64,000 nucleotides of DNA from Tissierellia bacterium KA00581 (GTDB lineage Bacteria; Bacillota; Clostridia; Tissierellales; Peptoniphilaceae): positions 1 to 64,000 of the forward strand of contig KQ959663.1 of the NCBI GenBank assembly GCA_001552895.1, given 5' to 3'. The notes below the pieces were generated by a model. That model did not search any database, was not told the origin of the DNA, and saw nothing but the letters and a program-made list of their open reading frames with translations. Position numbers and translations under genes: made by a program. Positions 61,222-62,409 of the stretch are shown piece after piece. Positions within the stretch are counted from its first letter, which is position 1; every line of letters begins with the position of its first letter.

Positions 61222-62409
61222 TTATTTACAATATTTTTCTCTTAAAATATGGGAAGCTTTAACCATATTAGATAATTTTTCTTCAATAATGTTATAAGGA
61301 TTTAATGGTCTTTTAGCAAATGTTGCAAATCCACAATCTGGATTTAACCAGATTTTTTCAGGTGGTAAAAATTCTAAAGCTTTTTGTACTCTTTCTACAA
61401 TTTCATCAACAGTTTCAACTCTTGGTATTCTAGGATTAACGCACCCTACTCCTAACATAATTTTCTTATTTAAATCATTATTTTTAAATAATTGACTTAT
61501 TTCTCCAGCACGTGGAGTTGAAAATTCAAGTGCTAACATATCTACATCCAATGAGTCAAAAAATTTACTTAATTTATCATATGCCCCTTCAAGTAATACA
61601 CTTTCATCACAAGTCCAATTTCCACGACAAACGTGCATAACTGATAATACATCATCATATTTTCTAATTTCAGCAAAAATTTCTGAAAGTAATTGCCCTG
61701 CAAATTTTAATTCTCGATCAACCTTGACCTTAGCAGATAACGCTCCTCAGTAAAAAGAATTAGAAGAATTTGTATTTTTAAAAACTACTTCAGATAAAAT
61801 TGGTTCATCAATTTGTATAACTTTAGCTCCTAGAGAAACTAATCTTTTAATTTCATTTATCAAAAGTTTTACAACATCTTTACCCAACTCATTACGATTT
61901 TCATAAACTTTTCCAGTTACTTCTTTAAGCCACATAGACCTTGTAAGAAGATAAGGACTTGGCAAAGTCATTTTAAAATCAGAATCTGTAATTTTTTTTA
62001 TCATCTTTACTTCATCAATATCAAGTTCAACATCTGTTTTTATTCGATCAACACAAATTGGACTATTCATCGAATTATCAGAAGCATCCATTTCTTTTAA
62101 ACTTTTATTAAAATCACCTTTATTTTCTGTTAAACTTAAAATTTGATCTGTTGCCATAAGTTTAATTCCATAAACATGTTCTGCAACATAACTCATGTAA
62201 TTATCACGAGAAATTTCTCCACTTATTACAACATCAATTCCTATTTTATCAAGCATGTTTACAACAAATTTAGTTTCATCAAATACCATTTTATCATATT
62301 CTTCTTTTAAAGATGAATCTTTTTGTAGCTTTTCTTTTAAGCTAAGTAATTTATTTGACCTTGGCATACTTCCGATTAAAGTTGTTGAAAAAGGTTTAAA
62401 ATTTTTCAT
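61222..62409 (-). CDS. MetE-like methyltransferase with an in-frame TGA (probable selenoprotein)
   Basis: Read through one TGA, this is an intact 395-residue member of the cobalamin-independent methionine synthase C-terminal family. It runs from FKPFSTTLIGSMPRS at the start to VIQIDEPILSEVVF near 200, TGA at residue 221 in SFY-TGA-GALSAK, then the zinc-binding HVCRGNW near 259-265 and LNPDCGFATF near 357. The family usually has Cys at the TGA position (F-x-C-x-A-L as I recall). The other reading frames hold no frameshift path, and homology resumes directly after the TGA. A hairpin with an AGGU loop follows (61716-61729). TGGAGGAAAT precedes the ATG. It likely moves methyl groups to a thiol or selenol acceptor. 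Confidence 0.82.
61716..61749 (-). promoter_or_regulatory. Candidate bacterial SECIS element of the MetE-like gene
   Basis: TGA at 61747-61749 is followed after 17 nt by the hairpin GGTCA-AGGT-TGATC (61716-61729), five pairs including one G-U, with loop AGGU. The E. coli fdhF SECIS also exposes AGGU in its loop at about 18 nt after UGA, and SelB contacts those G residues. Two further outer pairs (CT/AG) can form beyond a small internal loop. Confidence 0.7.

Follow-up and report, generated by a model that had tools for sequence, protein, structure and literature searches.

The window analysed here is a stretch of 64,000 nucleotides from Tissierellia bacterium KA00581 (contig KQ959663.1, positions 1 to 64,000), whose genome comprises 1.6 Mb in 68 contigs. 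On its minus strand lies a MetE-like gene that carries one in-frame TGA and, judging from the sequence comparisons described below, is almost certainly a true selenoprotein gene. We call it MetE-Sec, for the selenocysteine (Sec) predicted at the TGA codon. The features that bear on this reading are as follows:

61222 to 62409, minus strand: MetE-like (PF01717) gene, predicted to encode a selenoprotein; 395 codons plus TAA, with codon 221 for Sec; Meth_synt_2 match.
61747 to 61749, minus strand: UGA codon 221, predicted to be decoded as Sec; nine genomes have TGA here, and the close relatives examined have Cys.
61716 to 61729, minus strand: putative selenocysteine insertion sequence (SECIS) hairpin; 5-bp stem and AGGU loop, 17 nt 3' of the UGA.

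Read from 62409 to 61222 with the TGA as U, the minus strand gives a single frame of 395 amino acids that ends in TAA and is interrupted only by the TGA of codon 221. The original prediction of an otherwise intact MetE-like gene broken by one TGA was thus recovered at the right coordinates; the strand, which it had left unstated, is minus. The motifs HVCRGNW (residues 259-265) and NPDCG (356-360) were found downstream of the TGA in the unchanged frame, also as predicted. Meth_synt_2 (PF01717) of Pfam matches along the length of the gene with 117.1 bits against a cut-off of 21, and open reading frame (ORF) callers cut the gene into pieces of 220 and 138 amino acids.

Nine genomes spanning four families have TGA at this codon: the window genome, Parvimonas parva and seven genomes from three other families of the phylum (G858, G1078, G1124, G1227, G1331, G1251 and G1184). 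Searches centred on the window, through the class and the phylum, turned up one extra TGA homolog, G858, and the other six came from a search centred on G858. A further class-level search returned Cys forms only and no additional TGA homolog, and a plasmid search for named carriers returned only Cys forms from Paracoccus. The TGA proteins are 47-61% identical to that of the window, except for its closest named relative, P. parva (96%). In all nine the TGA falls at the identical aligned codon, in the motif FYUG; every gene has a single internal stop and ends in TAA or TAG, never in TGA. Since the window and P. parva genes differ at only 31 nucleotides, the TGA common to these two is by itself weak evidence. 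Their ratios of nonsynonymous to synonymous substitution (dN/dS), 0.27 before the TGA (0.0192/0.0720) and 0.18 after it (0.0121/0.0689), indicate purifying selection on both halves. The in-frame UGA is flanked on both sides by conserved coding sequence, and in a 28-row alignment conserved residues resume immediately past it. A pseudogene, a sequencing error or two genes split by a real stop would fit the single in-frame stop and the division made by ORF callers. However, the nine-genome conservation of the TGA, the selection on the downstream half, the conserved residues straight after the codon and a compensatory hairpin (below) leave this explanation a negligible probability. It was rejected, as it would need all nine assemblies to be wrong at one codon; the eight other genomes with TGA at this position answer the objection that the TGA is an error of sequencing.

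About 45 close relatives have Cys at the codon-221 column, in the motifs FMCAAL, FMCASL and FMCGAL, which agrees with the residue (F-x-C-A-A-L) given in the original prediction; U (TGA) or C occupies the column throughout the close family. Residues other than Cys at this site together with varied disruptions elsewhere, named beforehand as signs against a selenoprotein, were not seen: the close relatives have Cys and each TGA gene has its one TGA. A Cys ortholog reading FFCG, L032 of genome G005, is nested within the TGA clade (clade support 97/100). It and the Sec form of G858 share a neighbourhood with a triple-rhodanese gene upstream and an ABC transporter of the OpuC type, so that the two make a natural Sec/Cys ortholog pair. 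Farther away, the column is a gap in two distant relatives and Leu in the archaeal relative L027, and the Cys/Sec site is therefore specific to the subfamily.

The hairpin (GGUCA-AGGU-UGAUC, with a G in the apical loop) lies 17 nt downstream of the TGA, as had been predicted, and its pairing is supported by covariation. Over the nine TGA genes 91% of the cells are paired and four of the five pairs show two-sided changes; the covariation score reaches 0.411 where shuffles average 0.203, with none of the 500 as high, and sliding the partner by 1-3 columns as a control brings the pairing down to 11-47%. Most of the two-sided changes come from G1227, where GUCA/UGAC has become GCUC/GAGC while the peptide changed from VKVD to ALES; what is conserved is thus the shape of the RNA and not the peptide. 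At the corresponding position of the Cys ortholog L032 the hairpin is absent. Rfam found no SECIS in the final 14 kb of the window, and covariation served as the test of the hairpin instead. For the window sequence alone RNAfold gave competing folds, so single-sequence folding was set aside as evidence.

The genes for Sec insertion that the original prediction called for (selA, selB, selD and selC, the tRNA-Sec gene) are all in the window genome, which contains a selD-selA-selB cluster; selB scores 364 bits (cut-off 242) and tRNA-Sec 70.7 bits (cut-off 47). selB and tRNA-Sec are above their cut-offs in all nine TGA genomes, selA and selD having been established for the window genome. SelB bound to the short hairpin just past the codon is predicted to bring Sec-tRNA(Sec) to UGA 221. 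In most of the seven genomes outside Parvimonas selD, selB and selA are clustered, usually with yedF and near genes that by eye look like glycine-reductase genes; these seven appear to be lactic-order bacteria. Several of their relatives that are without the MetE-Sec gene are also without selB or tRNA-Sec. Cys being the alternative residue in homologs, a suppressor tRNA might read the UGA as another residue such as Cys or Trp. This is very improbable and was rejected, as the TGA form occurs only alongside selB and tRNA-Sec and the SECIS hairpin is lost in the Cys ortholog. The selD gene of the window genome (L069:7520-8587, contig 18) is a selenoprotein gene as well, with a TGA at L069:7589 in the motif TSGUAAK; it scores as SelD when this in-frame TGA is read through, and P. 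parva has the same TGA.

The residues of Escherichia coli MetE that bind zinc (H641, C643, E665, C726) and homocysteine (S433, E484, D599) (PMC7857596) were mapped onto the 395-residue frame:

61633 to 61635, minus strand: His259 codon, predicted zinc ligand (E. coli MetE His641).
61627 to 61629, minus strand: Cys261 codon, predicted zinc ligand (Cys643).
61525 to 61527, minus strand: Glu295 codon, predicted zinc ligand (Glu665).
61333 to 61335, minus strand: Cys359 codon, predicted zinc ligand (Cys726).
61807 to 61809, minus strand: Asp201 codon, predicted ligand of the homocysteine amino group (Asp599), at the end of a model strand (197-201) just before the Sec loop.
62215 to 62217, minus strand: Glu65 codon, predicted ligand of the homocysteine amino group (Glu484).
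62368 to 62370, minus strand: Ser14 codon, predicted ligand of the homocysteine carboxyl group (Ser433).

The alignment of 28 homologs shows no variation at any of these seven residues, four of them predicted zinc ligands and three predicted to bind homocysteine. A structure predicted with Cys standing in for Sec221 has a mean pLDDT (predicted local distance difference test) of 86.7 and a pTM (predicted template modelling score) of 0.89, and its best Foldseek matches are MetE crystal structures (best E 5.5e-22). Residue 221 falls within segment 213-227, which has a pLDDT below 50, after the strand ending in Asp201 and 38 residues before His259. From the barrel topology we infer that this loop lies at the catalytic end of the barrel, and in the model it is probably mobile; with such a pLDDT, the nearness of Sec221 to the zinc rests on topology and not on coordinates. 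Of the claim that the Sec adjoins a zinc-dependent methyl-transfer site, the zinc-site motifs stood; any contact between zinc and the Sec in this low-confidence loop is hypothetical. The position of Sec221 in the loop after the Asp201 strand would also suit an extra or exchangeable zinc ligand that tunes the Lewis acidity of the metal. However, the zinc site already has its full classical set of four invariant ligands, and it would be unusual for a structural ligand to sit in a loop of such low confidence; such a role is highly unlikely. That the protein joins a Sec residue to a zinc methyltransferase-type active site is, taken as a whole, very probable.

The product is predicted to be a single-barrel, zinc-dependent MetE-like enzyme with all its putative ligands kept and no folate domain: it has 395 amino acids, where classical MetE has about 750, and its Meth_synt_1 score is 26.1 (cut-off 27). 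None of the curated NCBIfam methionine-synthase models passes its cut-off; the best is PRK04326 (168.6 against 406), and the classical MetE model TIGR01371 scores 111.6 bits against 929.95. The family named in the original prediction therefore holds at the level of PF01717, whereas identity as a methionine synthase is unproven. The enzyme could still be an ordinary core methionine synthase that transfers methyl from a corrinoid-like donor to homocysteine, with Sec giving a modest kinetic gain instead of serving as a relay. Such core synthases are known (PMC7857596), all the zinc-binding and homocysteine-binding residues are kept, and in P. parva metNIQ-type methionine transporter genes (below strict cut-offs) lie just downstream. 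Yet no methionine-synthase equivalog passes, the Cys/Sec column is absent from the archaeal L027 and from the two distant relatives with a gap, and the neighbours described next encode selenium/sulfur carriers and not corrinoid proteins; we regard a core synthase with a faster Sec variant as unlikely.

The YedF-like gene that had been predicted directly upstream is present:

62509 to 62850, minus strand: yedF-like gene (DsrE-only, CGIC motif), directly upstream of MetE-Sec; TIGR03527, 117.3 bits against a cut-off of 110.

Its product covers only positions 84-193 of the TIGR03527 profile, that is, the C-terminal DsrE-type half, and the N-terminal SirA/TusA domain is missing. yedF is likewise directly upstream of MetE-Sec in P. 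parva, G1124, G1331, G1251 and G1184, and in G1227 both yedF and a gene for a YedE selenium transporter (374.6 bits) adjoin MetE-Sec. Of the seven YedFs linked to MetE, six fall in one clade (100/98), which also holds the YedF of G1149. Some of the same genomes have sel-operon YedFs as well, and these lie outside the clade. The MetE tree and the YedF tree both place the Parvimonas sequences (window genome and P. parva) as sister to G1331/G1251, suggesting that Parvimonas acquired yedF-metE(Sec) in one piece by horizontal transfer; the flanks of MetE-Sec differ between the two Parvimonas genomes, with mscL in one and a MetNIQ-like transporter in the other. A cysteine-desulfurase-family gene follows MetE-Sec in G1078. 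Taken with yedF, the rhodanese and a TusA-like domain (below), the recurring partners are persulfide/selenium carriers.

The operon that holds the Cys form has the conserved make-up ACAD - SBP-like - MetE - OsmC; it occurs in the window genome as well as in Bacillus, Gemella, P. micra and others. In the window genome the operon of the Cys paralog is at L073:15752-19475 (contig 55); its ACAD has Rv1679/FadE16 as best NCBIfam match and its cytosolic-looking SBP-like protein has Rv1680, both below cut-off, and the MetE-like and OsmC-like genes come next. A literature search found no function for Rv1679 or Rv1680. On the Paracoccus versutus plasmid pBEN (L120, just upstream of 8200) a Cys form (FMCG) stands directly upstream of selA, seems to carry a fused TusA-like domain at its N-terminus (27.5 bits, slightly short of the 28.6 cut-off), and the locus is followed by a thioredoxin-reductase-like frame. 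In G1311 (L109:11685-19000, L119) a Cys MetE-like gene lies between genes reading as grdX/E/B and grdD/C in a glycine-reductase-type operon, with GrdB confirmed by profile and selA-selB-yedF-selD close by. The OpuC-type (betaine) transporter and triple-rhodanese genes flank the Sec form of G858 at L081:4434-8314 and the Cys form of G005 at L118:3968-7838; the transporter is a possible clue to a betaine-like substrate. Elsewhere in the window, on the minus strand, a T-box leader precedes thrS at 58457-58614 (71.5 bits, E 3.6e-14, below the Rfam gathering score of 93), and 59923-60606 encodes a DUF6873 protein beside hisS.

Some points weigh against a selenoprotein with the active site proposed here. 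Selenoprotein status has a computational basis; the stem is short (4-5 bp) and is missing from the RNAfold global minimum in some sequences; the loop of residue 221 is modelled at a pLDDT below 50; and neighbour genes vary among genomes. Set beside them are a conserved UGA, Sec/Cys exchange, SECIS covariation, a full Sec machinery, intact catalytic residues and linkage to YedF, all shown computationally.

For the chemistry, the leading but tentative proposal, somewhat less likely than not to be right, is that Sec helps to transfer a methyl group or to hand off a chalcogen on sulfur/selenium amino acids. The barrel would carry Sec221 on a mobile loop at its catalytic end. The zinc site would activate the thiol or selenol of a homocysteine-like substrate, and the Sec selenolate would act as a second nucleophile or relay, either by accepting a methyl group or chalcogen that a methylated or selenated partner gives up, or by restoring the thiol. 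Sec221 might then exchange with the CGxC of the partner YedF, being reset or unloaded and feeding the selenium/sulfur pool. Besides the core synthase, the main rival to this relay is a redox switch, in which oxidation of the loop selenolate leads to a selenenyl-sulfide, closing or protecting the zinc site until YedF resets the switch through its CGxC. The probably mobile loop of the model and the CGIC of YedF, a protein described as redox-like (PMC5322559), would fit such a switch, but the conserved operon of the Cys form is another one and in most genomes has no YedF; we consider the switch decidedly unlikely. Going further along the relay proposal, MetE-Sec and a dedicated DsrE-type YedF might constitute an undescribed selenium/sulfur salvage pair, which is somewhat unlikely. 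The zinc barrel would bind homocysteine- or selenohomocysteine-like amino acids, the selenolate would take methyl or chalcogen from methylated Se/S compounds, the product would pass through YedF to the selenium supply, and the Cys form would be the sulfur counterpart within the ACAD/SBP-like/OsmC operon.

The original prediction knew of no described selenoprotein in the methionine-synthase family, and a direct search of open-access papers for MetE or PF01717 together with selenoproteins likewise found none. The full table of a 2026 survey that counts 119 families and subfamilies of prokaryotic selenoproteins (PMC13188914) has no member of the MetE/PF01717 fold, and no such selenoprotein appears in the available text of a 2022 review (PMC9312934), of deep-Sep (PMC12013277) or of a comparative genomics study of selenium genes (PMC5322559). 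Apparently, then, MetE-Sec is a selenoprotein family new within a known enzyme superfamily, adding one to the MetE/UroD-type zinc methyltransferase barrel, a fold with none listed. Since the zinc-thiolate site for methyl transfer in this kind of enzyme is well understood, known chemistry can be used to test what selenium does, and the system is made tractable by the natural pair of U and C orthologs and by the conserved partner YedF. MetE-Sec genes of Parvimonas and its relatives are prone to annotation as split genes or pseudogenes.

Compared with known systems, MetE-Sec is like the C-terminal catalytic barrel of MetE (TIGR01371) in its fold, PF01717 match, H259/C261/E295/C359 and S14/E65/D201, but it is half as long, is without the N-terminal folate domain and has Sec/Cys on a subfamily-specific loop. 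The core methionine synthases MesA-MesD (PMC7857596) are also single-barrel and folate-independent with the same functional residues, and Foldseek matched the model to, among others, the MesD structure 3RPD. In a comparison made with NCBIfam core-type models, all below their cut-offs, MetE-Sec differs from them in its UGA, in passing no curated model and in its linkage to YedF, rhodanese or Sec-lyase-type genes; the neighbourhoods examined have no Wood-Ljungdahl corrinoid genes or MesX. The MtaA-like proteins of type I MGCs, proposed as methyl-selenium methyltransferases (PMC10418091), belong to the same UroD/MetE superfamily and resemble MetE-Sec in their strong co-occurrence with selenium genes and possible methyl-selenium substrates, although they are a different family and the available part of that source reports no Sec in them. 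Sec in a methyltransferase is already found in the selenoproteins ArsM (arsenite methyltransferase) and MduS (PMC13188914); these come from unrelated families (NF008823, PF13649), whereas MetE-Sec is a PF01717 zinc barrel.
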